From NCBI GenBank assembly GCA_947468275.1, contig CANIKO010000004.1:1-64000 (forward strand): a stretch of 64,000 bases of DNA. The letters run 5' to 3'. The stretch's first letter is position 1, and each line of letters begins with the position of its first letter. The notes under the pieces were generated by a model. That model was not told the DNA's origin and searched no databases. It was given only the letters and a program-made list of their open reading frames with translations. The position numbers and the translations under genes were made by a program. The stretch is from Bacteroidota bacterium. GTDB taxonomy: Bacteria; Bacteroidota; Bacteroidia; NS11-12g; UBA9320. Shown here piece after piece: positions 24,009 through 38,530 of the stretch.

Positions 24009-24140
24009 TTTGAAAATTTGAAAATTGGCAATTAATTAATTTTTATATTTTTATAAATGCATTGCCGAATATTCTATTTTGGAGATTTGAAAATGATTTA
24101 CATCACAAATAACCAATTACTTATTAACCAATAAACCAAT
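24008..24140. repeat. Composite AT-rich intergenic repeat
   Basis: Between pruA and the FemAB-like gene: AATTTGAAAATTTGAAAATT near 24010 and, 70 bases on, a run of AACCAAT-like words (ATAACCAATTACTTATTAAC, CAATAAACCAATTACTC) touching the pruA stop. The gap 13740-13838 between the zinc peptidase and GNAT genes has the same two parts in the same order (GAAAATTTGAAAATTTGGAA, then ATAACCAATAACTCAATAAC). A third TTTGAAAATTTGAAAATG run follows the rluA-like stop (26615-26645, minus strand). Confidence 0.5.
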
Positions 24141-25771
24141 TACTCTAAGCCTAAAAAAGGATAGCGATAATCTTTTGCCGGAACAAAGGTTTCTTTAATG
24201 GTTCGCATACTTACCCAACGCAATAAATTCACTTTAGCGCCAGCCTTGTCATTCGTTCCCGAACCACGGCCACCGCCAAAAGGCTGCTGACCAACTACGG
24301 CTCCTGTGGGTTTATCATTGATATAAAAATTTCCTGCAGCATTTACCAAAGCCCGTGTGGCTGTTTCAATGGCATAACGGTCTTGGGCAATAACACAACC
24401 CGTTAAAGCATATTCTGAAGTTGAATCCAAAATGGCTAAGGTTTTTTCGAAGTCATCCTCGGGGTAAACGTAAATAGTCAAAACCGGTCCAAACAACTCT
24501 TCACACATGGTTCTGTATTTTGGATCGCTGGCTACTATTACGGTAGGCTCGATGAAATACCCTTTGGTTTTATCATAATTTCCACCGGCAATTATTTCAA
24601 CAGAAGAATCCTTTTTGGCGGCATCAATATAAGAAGCCAGTTTATCAAACGATTTTTCATCAATCACTGCATTTATAAAATTTGAAAAATCTTCAGTTGG
24701 CCCCATTTTCATAGATTTCAGGTCAGCTATAAGTCCTTCTTTTATTTCAGCCCAAAGATTGGATGGGATATATGCTCTTGAAGCTGCTGAACATTTTTGT
24801 CCCTGGTATTCAAAAGCCCCGCGGCTTAAAGCCGTAATCACGGTTCTGATATCAGCTGTTTTATGAACCATCACAAAATCTTTTCCTCCGGTTTCACCAA
24901 CAATACGGGGATAGCTTTTGTATTTTTCAATGTTGTTTCCTATATCTCTCCATACCTGGCGGAAAACTTCGGTAGAACCTGTAAAATGGATTCCTGCAAA
25001 ATCACGGTGTTTGAAAATGATATCACCGGCAGTCGGGCCACTCACATAAATCAGGTTAATTACACCGGCCGGCAATCCGGCTTCTTCAAATATTTCCATT
25101 AATATATTGGCGGCATAAATCTGGGTATTGGCAGGTTTCCAAACCACAGTATTTCCCATCATAGCTGCGGAAGTTGGTAAATTTCCGCTGATGGCTGTAA
25201 AGTTAAATGGGGTTAAAGCAAATACAAATCCTTCCAAGGGGCGGTATTCCAAACGGTTCCATACGGTTTTCGAATTTTCGGAAGGCTGTTCATTGTATAT
25301 TTCGTGCATATACTGAACATTAAACCTCAAAAAATCAATCATTTCACAAGCAGCGTCAATCTCAGCCTGATACACGCTTTTACTTTGGCAAAGCATGGTG
25401 GCTGCGTTAATCTTGGCGCGATATGGCCCGGCCAATAAATCGGCGGCTTTCAAAAAGATTGCGGCGCGTTGTTCCCAAGCCAATTCGCTCCATTGTTTTT
25501 TAGCGGCCAAAGCGGCATCAATGGCAGCAGTCACGTGGGAAGCATCTCCTCTTGAAAATTCACCCAATTTATGGGCAATATCGTGTGGAGGATTCATACT
25601 TACTTTTGAATCGGTATGAACTATTTTACCGTTGATGTGCATGCCAACACTCATTTGCTGGCTTCGCAATTGGGCAATAGCGGCTTTTAAATTTTCTCTT
25701 TCTTTGCTTCCCGGTGCATAGTCCAGCACAGGTTCGTTAATGGCTTTGGGTACTCTGAATATTCCGTTCAT
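24140..25771 (-). CDS. pruA: L-glutamate gamma-semialdehyde dehydrogenase (1-pyrroline-5-carboxylate dehydrogenase)
   Basis: A 543-residue cytoplasmic NAD-dependent dehydrogenase. It oxidises L-glutamate gamma-semialdehyde (the open form of pyrroline-5-carboxylate) to glutamate, the second step of proline breakdown. The aldehyde dehydrogenase fold is complete: LTPFNFTAISGNLPTSAAMM (cofactor site), FTGSTEVFRQVW, catalytic Glu293 in GETGGKDF, nucleophile Cys327 in YQGQKCSAASR, and the C-terminal PFGGGRGSGTNDKAG. Length matches mono-functional PruA of eukaryotic/Bacteroidota type rather than the PutA fusion. No proline dehydrogenase gene is within the window. Terminal residues RTIKETFVPAKDYRYPFLGLE are typical. 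Confidence 0.96.
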   Translation of the reverse strand: MNGIFRVPKAINEPVLDYAPGSKERENLKAAIAQLRSQQMSVGMHINGKIVHTDSKVSMNPPHDIAHKLGEFSRGDASHVTAAIDAALAAKKQWSELAWEQRAAIFLKAADLLAGPYRAKINAATMLCQSKSVYQAEIDAACEMIDFLRFNVQYMHEIYNEQPSENSKTVWNRLEYRPLEGFVFALTPFNFTAISGNLPTSAAMMGNTVVWKPANTQIYAANILMEIFEEAGLPAGVINLIYVSGPTAGDIIFKHRDFAGIHFTGSTEVFRQVWRDIGNNIEKYKSYPRIVGETGGKDFVMVHKTADIRTVITALSRGAFEYQGQKCSAASRAYIPSNLWAEIKEGLIADLKSMKMGPTEDFSNFINAVIDEKSFDKLASYIDAAKKDSSVEIIAGGNYDKTKGYFIEPTVIVASDPKYRTMCEELFGPVLTIYVYPEDDFEKTLAILDSTSEYALTGCVIAQDRYAIETATRALVNAAGNFYINDKPTGAVVGQQPFGGGRGSGTNDKAGAKVNLLRWVSMRTIKETFVPAKDYRYPFLGLE

Positions 25772-28344: not shown

Positions 28345-28569
28345 TTAAATGAGTTTTAAATATTCATCTGTAGTTAAATCAATTTGTTTTAATATTTCAC
28401 GAATCAAAGGTCTTGATAAATCTATACTTCCATGGTGGGGTAAAGTTGTATATCGGCCATCCGGATGTCTGTAAAATGAGTGGCTACCTTTCTGCCTGAC
28501 TTTTTCAAATCCCAATTGAAATAAGATTTTTTCAAAATGTCCGGCATCAATCAATGGCAGTTTACTCAT
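28345..28569 (-). CDS. hicA: HicA-type mRNA interferase toxin
   Basis: A 74-residue HicA (YcfA) toxin with the double-stranded-RNA-binding-like fold. It cuts mRNA independently of ribosomes in characterised systems. Signature KILFQLGFEKVRQKGSHSFY, with the catalytic His in GSHSFYRHPDGR, then TTLPHHG and PLIREILKQI. It overlaps hicB by four bases (ATGA) and follows it, so the antitoxin is made first. The stop is only 15 bases before murB. Confidence 0.92.
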   Translation of the reverse strand: MSKLPLIDAGHFEKILFQLGFEKVRQKGSHSFYRHPDGRYTTLPHHGSIDLSRPLIREILKQIDLTTDEYLKLI

Positions 28570-28793
28570 ATATCCACTGTAACATTTTGCATACCAATGA
28601 ATTCAGGTAAATTGGCCATTTCTTCTTCCGATAATTCTTCAATACACAATTCTATTACTTCTTTTAAATTTACATTTAATTGGTCTAAACTTGCAGCCTG
28701 TGTATGAGCCCCTGGCAAAGAAGGAACAAATCCAATATACAATCCGGTATCTTTGTCTCGTTCTATTTGAGCATTAAATTGCAAATGTTTCAT
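28566..28793 (-). CDS. hicB: HicB-type antitoxin
   Basis: A 75-residue HicB antitoxin made of the partial RNase H-like domain only: FNAQIERDKDTGLYIGFVPS, LPGAHTQAASLDQLNVNLKE, VIELCIEELSEEE. No helix-turn-helix or ribbon-helix-helix DNA-binding domain is attached, so autoregulation through HicB itself is doubtful unless the complex binds DNA in another way. The gene overlaps hicA by four bases. The promoter must lie in 28794-29049, a divergent intergenic region. Confidence 0.9.
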   Translation of the reverse strand: MKHLQFNAQIERDKDTGLYIGFVPSLPGAHTQAASLDQLNVNLKEVIELCIEELSEEEMANLPEFIGMQNVTVDI

Positions 28794-29049: not shown

Positions 29050-30690
29050 ATGAAAATAATTAGCATACAAGCACTTAGAGGCCCTAATATTTGGAGTATT
29101 AACCACGGGAATTTGATACAAATGCGGGTTGACCTTGAAAGTAGCGACGATTTAGAGGATGAAGATTTAGAAAAGCTTTATATAAATTTAGGTAATCTTT
29201 TAAGTAGTCCAAATTGGGATGAGTTTGAAGACCTGAAAAAATCAGATTTAACCTTGGCGGATTTGATTGTGAAGTTGGCTGTCACCATTCAATTGAAGGC
29301 AGGTTATAACGTAAGTTTTAGTTTAACCAGTAAAAAGAGAGAACGAGGAATTTGGGTTATGGTTTTTGAATACCAAAATGAGGAAGTTGGGGAATATGTT
29401 GCAGAACTATCGGTCAGAATAATTAAAGAAATATTAGCAGGAAAGTCTTGCGATTTAAAACAAGATTTGCAAAATTTAAAAATTGAAACCCATCAAAAAA
29501 CAGCTGCCAATACTATCCCCATCATTGCAATAACAGGCAGCAATGGAAAAACCACAACCACAAGAATAATTGCTCATATTGTTAATAACCATGGGTTTAA
29601 AGTTGGGTTTACAACGAGTAACGGAATCTACATTAACGATACCCTGATTTCGGAAGGAGATACCACCGGACCAATCAGTGCTAAAACCATTTTAGAAAAT
29701 CCTGACGTGGATTATGCTGTATTGGAAACTGCCCGCGGTGGTATTTTGCGATCTGGATTGGGGTTTAACGAATGCGATATAGCAGTGGTTACCAATATTC
29801 AGGAGGATCATTTAGGGATTTCGGATATTCATACCTTGGATGATTTGGCGCATGTGAAGGCTGTCGTTGTTGGTGCAGTAAAACAGGGGGGTTATGCCGT
29901 GTTGAATGCTGATAATGCGTATACTATAAAAATAGGACAAAATGCTCAATGTAAAGTGGCATACTTCAGTATAGATTCTCAAAATTCTGTTGTAAATGAA
30001 CATTGTGAAAGGGGAGGAGTAGCTGCAATTTTAGAAGAGGGATGGATTACATTGTTAAAGAGGGATTCTAAAATCAAAGTTCAAAAAGTTAGTGAAATTC
30101 CAATAACTTTTGGCGGAAAAATTTCGTTTATGGTTCAAAATGTTTTGGCAGCCACATTAGCCACCTATTTATCTGGATTTGAAATTGAAGAAATTGCAAA
30201 AAGCCTTTTAACATTTTTCCCATCACCGGAACAAACTCCAGGTAGACTTAATATTTATAATTTCAAAAAATTTAAAGTAATGGTCGATTTTGCGCATAAT
30301 TTGGATGCTTTTAAAGGGATAAAGGAGTATTTGGACACTATCAATTCTCCTCAAAAAATTGGAATAATCATTGGTACTGGCGATAGGCGCGATGAGGATA
30401 TCCGTGATTTTGGAAGGATTTCAGCCCAAATGTTTGACCATATCCTTATTAATCAAGACAAATTTTTAAGAGGGAGAAAAGCGGAAGAGATTGTTAATTT
30501 ATTGATAGAAGGAATTAAATCGGCCAATACAAATGCATCATACGAGTATTTATTTAAAGGAATTGAACCTTTAAAACATGCCCTCCAATTAGCAAAGCCA
30601 GGGGCATTTATTGTAGCTTTAAGTGCCGTATTGGAAAATCCGGATCAATTGGTGAAGGGATATCTGGCCGAAGAAAGTTCACATTTATAA
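29050..30690 (+). CDS. Cyanophycin-synthetase-like Mur ligase lacking the ATP-grasp domain
   Basis: A 546-residue cytoplasmic ATP-dependent amide ligase. Residues 1-~135 match the N-terminal domain of cyanophycin synthetase CphA (MKIISIQALRGPNIWSINHG, NLIQMRVDLE). Residues ~155-546 match its C-terminal Mur ligase half: P-loop TGSNGKTTTTR (162-172), SEGDTTGP, the CphA-type VLETARGGILRSGLGF, VVTNIQEDHLG, TPGRLNIY, VMVDFAHN and GTGDRRDEDI. CphA is about 870 residues; the ~310-residue ATP-grasp domain that extends the poly-Asp backbone is missing, with a clean join near residue 150. In CphA the Mur half attaches Arg to Asp side chains, so this protein could decorate an acceptor but not build the backbone. 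No cyanophycinase gene is nearby. It precedes htpG by 83 bases. Confidence 0.88.
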   Translation: MKIISIQALRGPNIWSINHGNLIQMRVDLESSDDLEDEDLEKLYINLGNLLSSPNWDEFEDLKKSDLTLADLIVKLAVTIQLKAGYNVSFSLTSKKRERGIWVMVFEYQNEEVGEYVAELSVRIIKEILAGKSCDLKQDLQNLKIETHQKTAANTIPIIAITGSNGKTTTTRIIAHIVNNHGFKVGFTTSNGIYINDTLISEGDTTGPISAKTILENPDVDYAVLETARGGILRSGLGFNECDIAVVTNIQEDHLGISDIHTLDDLAHVKAVVVGAVKQGGYAVLNADNAYTIKIGQNAQCKVAYFSIDSQNSVVNEHCERGGVAAILEEGWITLLKRDSKIKVQKVSEIPITFGGKISFMVQNVLAATLATYLSGFEIEEIAKSLLTFFPSPEQTPGRLNIYNFKKFKVMVDFAHNLDAFKGIKEYLDTINSPQKIGIIIGTGDRRDEDIRDFGRISAQMFDHILINQDKFLRGRKAEEIVNLLIEGIKSANTNASYEYLFKGIEPLKHALQLAKPGAFIVALSAVLENPDQLVKGYLAEESSHL

Positions 30691-33664: not shown

Positions 33665-36600
33665 TTATTCCTTTGTAATTCTAATAACCTGGCTTTGATT
33701 TCCAAAATTTATTTTAACAAAATATACACCAGAAGGTTGATCTGTAATATTAAATTTAAGTTCATTATCAGGTAAATCAAATGTTTTAATCACTTGTCCC
33801 ATAGTATTTATTACTTCAATTGATTTCATTTTTTTTGTTGAATTGATTGTGAAAATGCCAATACTAGGGTTTGGATAAACCTTCGTCCAATTATTATTTG
33901 AAACGTAATAGATTTTGGTAAATCCAACCTCTTTAGAAATACAATTTTCGCATCCGGCTACCGATTTAACACAAAGAGTAACAAAGGCATTTGATGAACT
34001 AGCATATTTATGTGAAGGATTTTCAATAAGAATTGTATCGCCATCACCAAATTTCCAGTTCCAATCGATAATGGTTCCTGATGAAACTGTTGATGTATTT
34101 TTAAAATCAATTGTATTTCCTGATTTTGCGATAAAAGTAAAATTAGCAACGGGTAATGGGTCTATTGGGAGAAGCCTTGTCATGGTATCATTGCAGCCTA
34201 AGTTGTTCTTTGCAATAAGCCTAACATTGTAGCTAATTGCTTCTGGATAGGTGTGTGCAGGATCTTTTGCAATAGAAGTAGTTCCGTCTCCAAAAGTCCA
34301 GGCATAAGTTTGGGCATTGGTACTAAGATTTATAAAATTACTGATACTTGTAATGCAAGTTCCTGAAATGCTGAAATCAGCTTTTGGATTTTGGTTTATT
34401 GTTACATAAAAGGAAGCTGAATCGCGGCAGCCTGATACATTGGTTTCAATAACTTTTAAAATTCCAGTACCAGTTATATTCCATTTTAAATTGACATTAT
34501 TTGTGTTTTGACCAGAATTAATAATACCTCCAGTAATTTTCCATTTATAATTATTCCCACTATTATTGGCGGTTGAATAATTTAAAACATTTCCATTACA
34601 AAGGTTATCAATTCCCGATATTTTAGGAAGAGGTGTACTCGCTATGGTTACTATAACTGTATCCAAATCATTGCAACCTGAACCTGTCACTGATTTTTCA
34701 AGTATATAGGTAGTGGTTTGGGCGGGCATATCTGTTGGATTGGCAGTAGTAGAGGTAAACCCTATTGGCATACTTGACCAACTATAACTAAATCCAGTTT
34801 GAGAAGTTGCTCCAATTTGAACTGAATTACCAGGGCATATAGTTTTGTCTTTACCAGCATCGGCAGTGGGCCTGGTGGTGGTTCCTATTTCTACTGTATC
34901 TCTTTGAGTGCATCCAAACGTAATATTGGTTACTTCTAAAATATATTTTGTTTTAGAAGTTGGTTTTACTGTAATCTGGGAGTTAGAACTAATAATGCTA
35001 TTGGAAATTGTCATCCACTTGTAGCCTAAACCCGTTCCTGGCCCTGTACCTAAAACTAATGAATCACCTTGGCAAATGTTCATATCGGCACCTGCATTGG
35101 CCCCTGGCAGTGCTCTTAATGCACGGGTCACAATAATAGAATCATTAAATTGAATGGCATCGCTCTGCCCATTTGGCAACGAAGCTTTAACAATAAATCG
35201 TGGATTAAAGGTAGATGAAAAGTCATAACTTCCTATTATGACAGTGTCGGAGGCATTAGTTACTAATTTTTTAGACCAATTATATGGAGTTTGTGAATTT
35301 CCATTTATGCTCCATGTAATTGTTGCGTTTTTTAAAGTGTCTTTACCAAAGTTTTTAATAACAGCAGAAACATCTAGCTTACTGGCACAGGCTCCCGCAA
35401 CAGGTTTTATTACTGCAATTATACCCGCATCGTTTGGAGAGAGTTTAAACTCATCAGCACCAATATCTGGGTTAGTTGAATTTCTTGTTTCTCCATCAAA
35501 ATCGGTTGTAACCCCTGATATAGGCTGACCTTTACCTTTTAAAAGATAATTTTTTATATGTAAAATAGAGGAAATAAAAAGGGGGTCTAGCGACAAAGAT
35601 TTACCATTGGTTCCCGTTGTCGAAACTAAATTAGATAAATTACTAATAGGAGTGCCCCAATAGGCAAACTGGGTACCTTTTGTTATTAAATTATTATTAT
35701 CACTTGCCGCTATTTGTGTTCCAGCGGAAACGTAAAAGACCTGGCCGCCATTCATAAATATGTTGTTATTTTTTAAAACTACATTGGTGGAAGCGGTAGG
35801 GGTGATATTTACAGCAATATTATCGGCAGAAGTACTTGGAAAATATATGCTATTAAAAACTATATTTTGATAGTCTACTCCGTTGAGAGATATTCCTTTC
35901 CCGTAATTTCTAACGATAGAGTTGTTTGCAATAATTCCATAACTAGAAGTTGAAGCATTACAAGCACTAATAAACATGGATGTATCAGTATTGGTCGATT
36001 TAAAGAAATTTCCATTTACTTTTATTCCTTTGTCGCAATCTGATAAATTTAAATCATAATTACCGAGGGTGTGAACATTAACATTTAAAAATGTGTTACC
36101 CTTCACCAAAACACTATCGCTATAACTCAATAGCACAGAATTATTAAAAGCACTTTCAAAAATGTTGCCTTCAATTATATTTCCTATTTCATGTGTAGCT
36201 GTTGTGCCGCCATACTGCATGCAATTGTATCCGAATTTTACATGATTGTTTCTAAATACATTATAATCGTCTTGTCCTTGGTCTGACCATATATTTATTG
36301 CATTTGCATTTGCTGCAGTCATTTGTAATCCAAGCATTCGGCAATTCGAAAATGTGTTATGATTAGAACTATTAAGGACATGTATAACTTGTGCATACGT
36401 ATTCGTTCCTGTTCGCTCAAAAGTTATTCCTTTAAAGGTTACATATTCAGCACCTCTTAATTGCAAGGCCGCATTATTACTACCTGTAGCCGTTGTTGAG
36501 GGAAGGGTTATTTTAACCTTTGTACTATCCTTGGAAATACTTTGAAATAATATGGGACTTGATGAGCCCATGCCGGGCAATTTTACTAAAGTAATTTGTT

Positions 36601-38530
36601 CATTAAAAGTTCCATTATAGGCGTTAAAGGTAATTGCACCGCAAACTCCACGCGAAGTCATTGCTGTAATGGCTTGGTTAAACGACTTATAATTGGAAAT
36701 AGATGTATCCCCTATGGTGTATGTTCCTGCCATTGCAGGTAATCGCGTTATTTTTAAAGTGTCGTTTACATTTTTACCGTCCGATTTTCCGTTTGGTATT
36801 CGGGTCCATATTTTAAAATTATAGCTAGTATTTGTAGAAAAGGTATAATATCCTAATCGAATGGAGGCTGATGATGCCCCAGGAGCTAATTTACCTGTCC
36901 AACTATACGGAGTTTGGGAGGATCCATTAATTTGCCATTGAATCTCAACACTTTTAATGGTATCAAAACCATAATTTTGAAAACTTGCTTTTACCATTTG
37001 TTTTCCCGGACAAAAAAGTAAAGGGCTATCTAAATTGGCAACTCCTGCATCTAAAGTAACAGGGAAAAATTCATCAGCTCCTATATCTGGAATTGCGTTA
37101 TCTCTAGCATCTCCGTCAATATCTAATCTTATACGTGAATCGTATAAGGCTTTTCCATTCAAACTGATATTAGATACATGAAGATTCGAATTACTTAAAT
37201 AACCAGGGTCAACATTCAATCCATTGGCATCTCTACTTGAACCAGACTGATAACTTGAGAAACTTGAATAATTAGTGCCTCCCCAGTTGGTTATATAGTT
37301 TCCGTTTGAATAATAGTTATTATAATTTACCGAATCTAAATCCGCTGTATTGGTGCCGGGAACATTGATGGCATAACCTCCACCTTTGTTAATTAAGTTA
37401 TTGCTTACCAATCGAATATTATTATTAGAATACGTCGCATAATGATAGTAAGCACTTGCATTTGTTAGCGAATTCAATATTAAAATATTATTATAAAGTA
37501 GGTTGAGGTAACTACACCCATATACTGCAAAACCTGTACATTCGGTAGTTCCACCTTGATTAACTACCCAATTGTTATAAACCATAGCAGGTGTAGCAGC
37601 CGTACTTGTAATACTGGCCATCACAATGGCTCTAACTACTTGTCCGTTGGTAGCAGACATAAATATCTTATTGTTGGCGGCCACCAAGGATGGCGAGGTT
37701 TCTATTCTAAAACCATAGGAAGTATAATGCCCTTTTCCAGCACCAAAATCACCCATATTAAAGGTATTACCTAAAATTCTTAGTGAGGTTTGAACCGTCA
37801 TATAAATACCTGAACAACCGCTAGTATCTATTATGTTGCCACTAATAGTATTAGCTGTGCATGCAATGGTATCATAAATGCCATTATATCCATAAATCAA
37901 TCGGTTCTGACTTATTTCAGTGCTGTCGCCGTTGCCTTTAAAATATATAATTGAACCTATGCCGTAAGTAAATCCTCTGCTAGAATTACTTGGCACTTTA
38001 CGACCCTTAAGTAGGCATTTCAATATTTTATTATTGTCGGCATCGTTGGCAATTTGAACAACGGTGCTGTATGTGTTTGTTCCGGTGCGTTCCATTCCAA
38101 TTTCTTGAATTGTAACATAATCAGCGCCGTTAAAAAATAATACATAATCATTAGCACTTGTGGCAGATGATGAAACTCTTAATAAACATTTGGAATAATC
38201 GCCGCTACTCGATTTAAATATAATTTTATTAGTATACGAGGTTCCACTAATGGCTCCAATTTCTACCGAGGTATTGTAAATTGTATCGTATACCGTTACT
38301 GTAACTGGGCCGCTTACACCCGCACCCTGAGGTGTGCCGCCATCGGTTCGGCTACCGCTAACTAGGTCGCCAACTGCTGAAGCCCAGTTTTGGTAGTTAC
38401 TGCTGCTTGCCGATTTGTTAGGATTAATGGTGTAATTTCCTTTAAGTTGAGCAAAGGTTGTGTTCGGAATAATGAATCCTAAAGTGAAGCAAATAATAAA
38501 CAAAGAAATGGAAGAGTCGTTTTTTTTCAT
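33665..38530 (-). CDS. Secreted beta-helix/CARDB/PKD protein with type A T9SS sorting domain
   Basis: A 1621-residue secreted protein. Signal peptide ends near NTTFAQ. It contains two tandem copies of a [parallel beta-helix + CARDB-like] unit. The first helix (~30-490) has VTIQEIGMERTGTNTYSTVV and is followed by a CARDB-like module (~492-600, VKASFQNYGFDTIKSVEIQW); the second helix (~600-1040) has VTFKGITFERTGTNTYAQVI and is followed by VSAVIKNFGKDTLKNATITW. Then come Ig/SprB-like modules (~1150-1400, ICQGDSLVLGTGPGTGLGYK), at least two PKD domains (YAWTFGDGTTS, WNWKFGDGDT) and the type A CTD (KVYPNPSIGIFTINS... GVYFVKIN). Helix NxxF/NxxI rungs suggest a polysaccharide-binding or lyase-like surface, but no catalytic site was recognised. 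Single gene with its own terminator. Confidence 0.92.
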   Translation of the reverse strand: MKKNDSSISLFIICFTLGFIIPNTTFAQLKGNYTINPNKSASSSNYQNWASAVGDLVSGSRTDGGTPQGAGVSGPVTVTVYDTIYNTSVEIGAISGTSYTNKIIFKSSSGDYSKCLLRVSSSATSANDYVLFFNGADYVTIQEIGMERTGTNTYSTVVQIANDADNNKILKCLLKGRKVPSNSSRGFTYGIGSIIYFKGNGDSTEISQNRLIYGYNGIYDTIACTANTISGNIIDTSGCSGIYMTVQTSLRILGNTFNMGDFGAGKGHYTSYGFRIETSPSLVAANNKIFMSATNGQVVRAIVMASITSTAATPAMVYNNWVVNQGGTTECTGFAVYGCSYLNLLYNNILILNSLTNASAYYHYATYSNNNIRLVSNNLINKGGGYAINVPGTNTADLDSVNYNNYYSNGNYITNWGGTNYSSFSSYQSGSSRDANGLNVDPGYLSNSNLHVSNISLNGKALYDSRIRLDIDGDARDNAIPDIGADEFFPVTLDAGVANLDSPLLFCPGKQMVKASFQNYGFDTIKSVEIQWQINGSSQTPYSWTGKLAPGASSASIRLGYYTFSTNTSYNFKIWTRIPNGKSDGKNVNDTLKITRLPAMAGTYTIGDTSISNYKSFNQAITAMTSRGVCGAITFNAYNGTFNEQITLVKLPGMGSSSPILFQSISKDSTKVKITLPSTTATGSNNAALQLRGAEYVTFKGITFERTGTNTYAQVIHVLNSSNHNTFSNCRMLGLQMTAANANAINIWSDQGQDDYNVFRNNHVKFGYNCMQYGGTTATHEIGNIIEGNIFESAFNNSVLLSYSDSVLVKGNTFLNVNVHTLGNYDLNLSDCDKGIKVNGNFFKSTNTDTSMFISACNASTSSYGIIANNSIVRNYGKGISLNGVDYQNIVFNSIYFPSTSADNIAVNITPTASTNVVLKNNNIFMNGGQVFYVSAGTQIAASDNNNLITKGTQFAYWGTPISNLSNLVSTTGTNGKSLSLDPLFISSILHIKNYLLKGKGQPISGVTTDFDGETRNSTNPDIGADEFKLSPNDAGIIAVIKPVAGACASKLDVSAVIKNFGKDTLKNATITWSINGNSQTPYNWSKKLVTNASDTVIIGSYDFSSTFNPRFIVKASLPNGQSDAIQFNDSIIVTRALRALPGANAGADMNICQGDSLVLGTGPGTGLGYKWMTISNSIISSNSQITVKPTSKTKYILEVTNITFGCTQRDTVEIGTTTRPTADAGKDKTICPGNSVQIGATSQTGFSYSWSSMPIGFTSTTANPTDMPAQTTTYILEKSVTGSGCNDLDTVIVTIASTPLPKISGIDNLCNGNVLNYSTANNSGNNYKWKITGGIINSGQNTNNVNLKWNITGTGILKVIETNVSGCRDSASFYVTINQNPKADFSISGTCITSISNFINLSTNAQTYAWTFGDGTTSIAKDPAHTYPEAISYNVRLIAKNNLGCNDTMTRLLPIDPLPVANFTFIAKSGNTIDFKNTSTVSSGTIIDWNWKFGDGDTILIENPSHKYASSSNAFVTLCVKSVAGCENCISKEVGFTKIYYVSNNNWTKVYPNPSIGIFTINSTKKMKSIEVINTMGQVIKTFDLPDNELKFNITDQPSGVYFVKINFGNQSQVIRITKE

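Follow-up and report, generated by a model that had tools for sequence, protein, structure and literature searches.

Cyanophycin synthetase (CphA), which makes the storage polymer cyanophycin, combines up to three active sites in one protein. Its ATP-grasp domain adds Asp to the backbone, and its Mur half attaches the side chains. In cyanobacterial CphA2, a CphA relative specialised by the loss of one activity, the ATP-grasp half was retained and the Mur site is the one that was lost. In MurE, the incoming amino acid is bound by a DNPR motif. Most CphA1s carry a zinc metallopeptidase site (Cx19HxxEH) in their N domain that generates primers, with the motif found in 83% of CphA1s (PMC9262961). 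CphA2 polymerises β-Asp-Arg dipeptides, and the zinc motif is absent from its N domain (PMC9262961).

Among the matches listed in a search of titles and abstracts in the open-licence PMC literature, we found no description of a CphA without its ATP-grasp (G) domain. Here, we describe such a protein, encoded within a 64,000-nt stretch of Bacteroidota DNA (the window), together with its relatives (hereafter short forms), which are maintained across several families beside a complete CphA. This clade represents an experiment of nature, in which CphA has lost two of its active sites and retains the third.

A CphA paralogue without an ATP-grasp domain

The features of the short gene and its surroundings are collected in Table 1. 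Pfam searches with the window protein matched PF18921 (residues 67–129, 41.1 bits against a cut-off of 27), PF08245 (161–371, 95.8 bits) and PF02875 (398–525, 38.9 bits), with no hit to any ATP-grasp family at E values up to 1; a family search of five other short forms gave no ATP-grasp match either. The PF18921 match reaches the cut-off in one of five further short forms and stays below it in the other four, at 18–24 bits. The cyanophycin synthetase model TIGR02068 (NCBIfam) scores 561.9 bits on the window protein, below its cut-off of 850, and a genome scan matched the gene to model positions 1–153 and 473–858 only, so that 319 model positions (154–472) are skipped. The best solved relatives of the protein are cyanophycin synthetases; in the top one, 7wac_A, chain residues 1–173 align to residues 1–161 of the window protein and chain residues 487–875 to 155–537, skipping chain residues 174–486. 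A sequence-only reading of this DNA had described an ATP-grasp domain missing between an N domain and a complete Mur half with an intact P-loop, and the present analysis agrees with it on each of these points.

The AF2 model of the window protein (mean pLDDT 87.8, pTM 0.84) superposes on whole CphA1 chains except for the G domain, with a TMq of 0.89 against 7wae_A and a Z of 39.4 over 536 residues (3.1 Å) against 7lgq_A. The predicted arrangement of the N and Mur domains is thus that of CphA1, and residues 1–150 are the CphA N domain. An ATP-grasp fold hidden in this region, which would have overturned the sequence-only reading, was found neither by Pfam nor in the model or its superposition on 7lgq_A.

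Table 1. Positions of the short CphA paralogue, its domains and motifs, and nearby genes in the window.
Feature	Position	Strand	Basis or remark
Short CphA paralogue; N domain and Mur ligase half, ATP-grasp missing	29050-30690	+	intact ORF, ATG start, 546 aa
N domain, residues 1-146; CphA-type fold, LRGPNxWS loop retained	29050..29487	+	Pfam, PDB alignment, structure comparison
Degenerate HxxEH zinc helix, residues 71-75; H..EH replaced by D..VK	29260..29274	+	alignment
Junction, residues 147-153; site of ATP-grasp in full-length CphA	29488..29508	+	pLDDT < 50
Mur ligase middle domain, residues 161-371	29530..30162	+	Pfam PF08245
P-loop GSNGKTT, residues 163-169	29536..29556	+	alignment; K167 invariant in short forms
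D253-H254, equivalent to SuCphA1 D585-H586	29806..29811	+	alignment; invariant in 12/12 short forms
Mur ligase C-terminal domain, residues 398-525	30241..30624	+	Pfam PF02875
Loop NQDKFLRGR, residues 468-476, aligned to MurE TSDNPR	30451..30477	+	alignment; R468 of most full-length CphAs lost
HicA/HicB-like toxin-antitoxin pair	28345-28569, 28566-28793	-	named from sequence
Delta-1-pyrroline-5-carboxylate dehydrogenase-like gene (arginine/proline breakdown)	24140-25771	-	named by eye
1621-aa repeat-rich secreted protein, type IX secretion-like C-terminus	33665-38530	-	named by eye

With CphA1 (TIGR02068; SuCphA1 7lg5/7lgq, TeCphA1 7wae), the window protein shares the N-domain fold (PF18921), the Mur half, the P-loop lysine, the Asp-His pair and the predicted N–Mur arrangement, but it lacks both the G domain and the Cx19HxxEH zinc site. 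Furthermore, R468 is replaced in the short forms, as is D/E470 outside the window's clade. Lacking a G domain, the short form by itself would not be expected to make cyanophycin from Asp, Arg and ATP. CphA2 is also without the zinc motif, but the short form is its mirror image: it has lost the G domain and retains the Mur half with its catalytic residues, the reverse case that the sequence-only reading had recognised. MurE resembles the window protein in its Mur middle and C-terminal domains, with the DNPR loop aligning to residues 470–474. However, the window protein reads QDKFLRGR instead of DNPR, scores 132.7 bits with TIGR01085 (cut-off 257.3), and has an N domain of the CphA type (PF18921) that did not match any Mur N-terminal domain. 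The short form is thus a member of neither CphA1, CphA2 nor MurE. This also holds a warning for annotation, as these proteins resemble cyanophycin synthetases but are without the backbone-building domain.

Distribution and origin of the short form

Proteins of the same architecture occur at least 12 times, in at least four Bacteroidota families, a lower bound given the strict E cut-offs and the fact that, in the large samples, scoring covered only the two or three top-ranking candidates of each genome. Three carriers belong to the window's genus: the window genome (G000), G005 (where the gene runs off the contig end) and G006. The short proteins of the latter two are 82% identical to that of the window; in these congeners the gene has the same short form, and not that of a full-length orthologue. 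Four carriers (G041, G047, G053 and G055) come from another family of the order, and the others are G325, G230, G209, G828 and a Saprospiraceae metagenome-assembled genome (MAG; L132 = G872). The three short-form records that carry a name are MAGs without exception. An even sample of the class contained the short form in at least five of its 395 genomes (G000, G006, G209, G230 and G325), and a phylum sample of 395 genomes contained it only in G000 at the cut-off used. The CphA frames of 485–639 aa in G164, G287, G337, G437, G479 and G054 were rejected as short forms, being contig-edge or masked fragments or the product of a frame break, and a 638-aa frame at a contig edge (L137) was left out of the count.

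Nine short forms make up one clade (bootstrap/SH-aLRT 100/100) in a tree built from 93 Mur halves, and this clade sits inside a group of full-length CphAs, designated B-type (98/86). A quick search with 12 short forms and 101 full-length proteins, which came with long-branch warnings, again recovered a single short clade (SH-aLRT 99). Short-bearing genomes have full-length CphAs of another, A type (10/12 in the trees; G005 and G055 not included). The named full-length proteins retrieved with the short alignment are mostly from Mucilaginibacter, Pedobacter and Flavobacterium.

The distance from LRGPN to the Mur half is 473–474 residues in full-length CphAs wherever the LRGPN pattern was found, and the N domain plus linker spans 137–214 residues in all 12 short forms. 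A remnant of the opening segment of the G domain (GYG or GFG) is kept in eight of these and absent from four (the window clade and G230). From this pattern we infer that a single excision of the G domain probably took place, followed by more trimming.

A sequencing or assembly deletion, or a pseudogene, was rejected in view of the recurrence of the same architecture in 12 genomes, its single clade and the purifying selection described below. Gene fission with a separate G-domain gene was rejected as well: no orphan CphA-type G-domain gene was found, and the two best TIGR02068 G-region hits besides the full-length CphA, to which this result refers, are ORFs of 300 and 332 aa that read as RimK-like and Ddl-like, respectively.

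Purifying selection on the short gene

Within the window's genus, the short gene is under purifying selection, with dN/dS values of 0.147, 0.167 and 0.115 for the three pairs, which contradicts a pseudogene. In every pair, the N domain has a higher ratio than the Mur half; between the window and G006, for example, the Mur half has a dN of 0.070 and a dS of 0.767, and the N domain a dN of 0.181 and a dS of 0.530. The full-length CphAs of the same genomes have ratios of 0.035–0.046, and that of the short gene is 2.5 to 5 times as large. Constraint thus acts on the short gene, though more weakly than on its full-length relative.

Loss of the zinc site from the N domain

The Cx19HxxEH motif is present in 79 of 81 full-length CphAs from the genome searches (the exceptions being L117 and L120) and in 76/76 of a named collection, and it is absent from all 12 short forms (0/9, with three further short forms also lacking it). 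Residues H79, E82 and H83 of SuCphA1 are D, V and K in the window protein. The polymer-contacting side chains of the SuCphA1 N domain include R70, E90 and Y110 (PMC9262961), of which the first two correspond to L62 and L82 in the window protein and the third to W102, at a position that is aromatic in 12/12 short forms. Because R70 and E90 are not conserved, cyanophycin binding at the N domain may be weak or gone.

In the alignment of nine short forms, the invariant N-domain residues are Q7, L9–G11, N13, W15, S16, L22–Q24, R26, Q81, Y108, E111 and G114. These include the loop that, around Y14 and I17 of SuCphA1, packs against the M domain (PMC9262961), and we read the N domain of the short forms as a probable scaffold for the Mur half. 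The earlier idea of a retained polymer-binding domain thus holds for the fold and the Mur-docking loop, but fails for the zinc site and the contacts at R70 and E90.

Catalytic residues retained and a presumed amino-acid loop changed in the Mur half

The P-loop lysine K167 and the D253-H254 pair are invariant in 12/12 short forms; mutating the equivalent D585-H586 in SuCphA1 inactivates its M domain (PMC9262961). Among the 89 Mur columns that are at least 98% constant in 101 full-length CphAs, 64 are invariant in all 12 short forms. P-loop residue 164, a threonine in the full-length proteins, is a serine in 11/12 short forms.

The presumed amino-acid loop has changed. When the Mur half is aligned with ten MurE proteins from related genomes, D470 to R474 (residues 470–474) line up with the DNPR motif of MurE. 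R474 is constant across the short forms. Position 468 is R in 94 of 101 full-length CphAs and in none of the 12 short forms, which have N, H, Q or S. Position 470 is D or E in 100/101 full-length proteins versus 3/12 short forms (the window clade), and position 447, R in 101/101 full-length proteins, is K or L in eight of the 12 short forms. The hairpin at 329–343 has diverged in the short forms, and the M-domain contacts S603 and E607 correspond to A271 and G275 in the window protein, at positions that are variable in full-length CphAs too. The changed loop, the loss of R447 and the divergent hairpin fit an altered choice of amino acid, yet a Mur site that has weakened or taken on another task could show them as well. 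Since Lys, Orn and Cit side chains are known in CphA products from engineered hosts (PMC8050183), an altered side-chain specificity would be chemically reasonable.

Link to cyanophycin genes and gene neighbourhood

The window genome has a full-length CphA of its own on another contig (an 888-aa frame, 1250 bits), adjoined by a cyanophycinase gene (above the family cut-off); the window gene is therefore a paralogue and not a broken sole copy. Full-length CphA scores above the family cut-off in all 12 short-bearing genomes (that of G055 runs off the contig end), and cyanophycinase is found in 11 of them, the L132 MAG being without a match. In the class sample, full-length CphA occurs in 156/395 genomes. 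The weakest best E-value listed there is 3.7e-202 and short forms only score from 4e-133 to 2e-151, so none of the 395 genomes is short-only or has the short form as its best match. In the order sample, all seven short-bearing genomes are among the 28 of 108 with cyanophycinase. Hypergeometric p values, which ignore relatedness, are 4e-5 for the order (cyanophycinase), 0.009 for the class (full-length cphA) and 0.029 for the genus. In the genus, the short gene, full-length cphA and the cyanophycinase gene cphB occur together in G000, G005 and G006, and all three are missing from G002, G003, G004 and G007 (the last only 77% complete). Against this link, just five of the 156 class-sample genomes with CphA have a short form, so that cyanophycin metabolism in general can do without it.

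With its own full-length CphA and cyanophycinase in the genome, and no short form found without a full-length CphA, the acceptor is more likely to be cyanophycin or a precursor than an unrelated peptide or protein. Here, the sequence-only reading needs revision: its ATP-grasp loss, Mur residues and CphA2 mirror stand, but its suggested acceptor, an acidic peptide or another molecule, is disfavoured by the presence of the full-length CphA.

The short and full-length genes are on separate contigs in G000, G005 and G006, and more than 40 kb apart in G000; in the neighbourhoods read by eye, no linkage of cphA or cphB to the short gene was seen. By eye, the neighbours in the window and in G006 are a murB-like gene before the short gene and an htpG-like gene after it, and the short contig of G005 has only the murB-like gene of the two. 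In G005 and G006, this gene is the immediate upstream neighbour, in divergent orientation; in the window, the HicAB-like pair separates it from the short gene. Neither neighbour was seen by eye at the short genes of G041, G047, G053, G055, G325 and G230.

Other genes around the window locus are worth recording. The HicAB-like pair is located between the murB-like and short CphA genes; it is absent from G006, where the corresponding gap is only ~165 bases. The delta-1-pyrroline-5-carboxylate dehydrogenase-like gene lies 3 kb upstream of the short gene and is retained nearby in G006. A 1622-aa relative of the repeat-rich secreted protein, judged by its start, occupies the same place in G006.

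What the short form might do

Our best explanation, to which we give a probability of about 0.45, is that the short form may be a dedicated Mur-type amide ligase, a side-chain-only CphA paralogue acting on cyanophycin or its precursors. It would use ATP to activate an aspartate β-carboxylate as an acyl phosphate, most likely that of a bare Asp at the C-terminus of the cyanophycin chain, or of Asp or β-aspartyl starter units, and attach one amino acid to it. This could be arginine or, since the selection loop has changed, another residue. Without a G domain it could not extend the Asp backbone, and without a zinc site it should not cut chains into primers. Its role would lie in finishing, repairing, capping or tailoring side chains on the polymer that the cell's own full-length CphA produces. 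In favour of this explanation are the invariant K167 and D253-H254, the 64 unchanged Mur columns, the predicted CphA1-like placing of the N and Mur domains, purifying selection, a single clade, the co-occurrence with full-length CphA and cyanophycinase, and the loop changes at 468 and 470. If active, such a ligase would separate the side-chain reaction from polymerisation, provide a small enzyme for tailoring poly-aspartate polymers, and might reveal a cyanophycin variant in Bacteroidota. Several observations speak against it: the loss of R70 and E90, the A271 and G275 found in place of two M-domain contacts (at variable positions), the changes at R447 and the hairpin, the absence of clustering with cphA or cphB, the raised dN/dS, the carriage by only 5/156 CphA-bearing genomes, and the L132 MAG without cyanophycinase.

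A bolder proposal, which we hold to be rather doubtful, is a two-enzyme division of labour in Bacteroidota, in which a stand-alone side-chain ligase with an altered choice of amino acid would decorate or cap cyanophycin with a non-arginine residue. If true, the product would be a form of cyanophycin, or a modification of its chain end, that has not been seen before.

Alternatively, the short form could be a regulatory or structural partner that assembles with full-length CphA through its N and Mur surfaces and modulates it, for example in a tetramer with fewer G domains that makes shorter chains, its own chemistry being secondary. CphA1 is a tetramer, in which the primer is contacted by a residue from across the Gcore–Gcore dimer (PMC9427784), so a subunit without a G domain would change the assembly; the company of full-length CphA in 12/12 genomes, the loss of R447 in 8/12 short forms and the divergent hairpin at 329–343 would fit as well. 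However, a subunit with a purely structural role would not need the P-loop lysine, the Asp-His pair and the majority of near-constant Mur columns to persist throughout a divergent clade, and the short clade nests with B-type CphAs while the full-length proteins of its own genomes are A-type (10/12 in the trees). We regard such a partnership as unlikely.

Slightly further down the scale, the short form may be a ligase with a non-cyanophycin acceptor, such as a peptide, a protein isoaspartate or a cell-wall-like precursor carrying an Asp side chain. The unconserved polymer contacts R70 and E90, the altered amino-acid loop, the lack of linkage to cphA or cphB, and the murB-like neighbour (by eye) in the window, G005 and G006 point in this direction. 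Against this, full-length CphA co-occurs strictly with the short form, the presence and absence of cphA and cphB is shared within the genus, and no murB-like gene was noticed by eye near the short gene in the other short-bearing lineages whose neighbourhoods were read.

It seems improbable that the short form is a starter enzyme, making β-Asp-amino acid dipeptides from free Asp that full-length CphA would slowly extend as primers. A Mur half by itself could make such dipeptides (Sharon et al.). However, in the eight of the 12 genomes that were checked, the full-length CphAs all keep Cx19HxxEH and should therefore make their own primers, and β-Asp-Arg alone failed to prime TmCphA1 (PMC9262961).

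Finally, a decaying gene heading for loss, or an assembly artefact, would fit the fast-evolving N domain and a dN/dS above that of the full-length gene, but is already largely refuted and very improbable given one clade across at least four families, dN/dS well under 1, conserved catalytic residues and no internal stop in 12/12 short forms (that of G005 running off the contig end).

Other CphA paralogues in Bacteroidota

Some Bacteroidota have two or three full-length CphA paralogues. Second copies in G137, G450 and G380 (L261, L262 and L263; 1010–1039 bits) are without Cx19HxxEH, and another group of specialised CphAs may exist. L117 and L120, the full-length CphAs of G165 and G465 (family f51) that lack the motif, have a very long branch when placed in the Mur tree. 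In the one-contig genome of G164, a B-type cphA is divided between two frames (L123, 4417–7031; 638 and 242 aa), by either a true frame break or a sequencing error, and an isoaspartyl-peptidase-like gene, named by eye, lies near this split gene.
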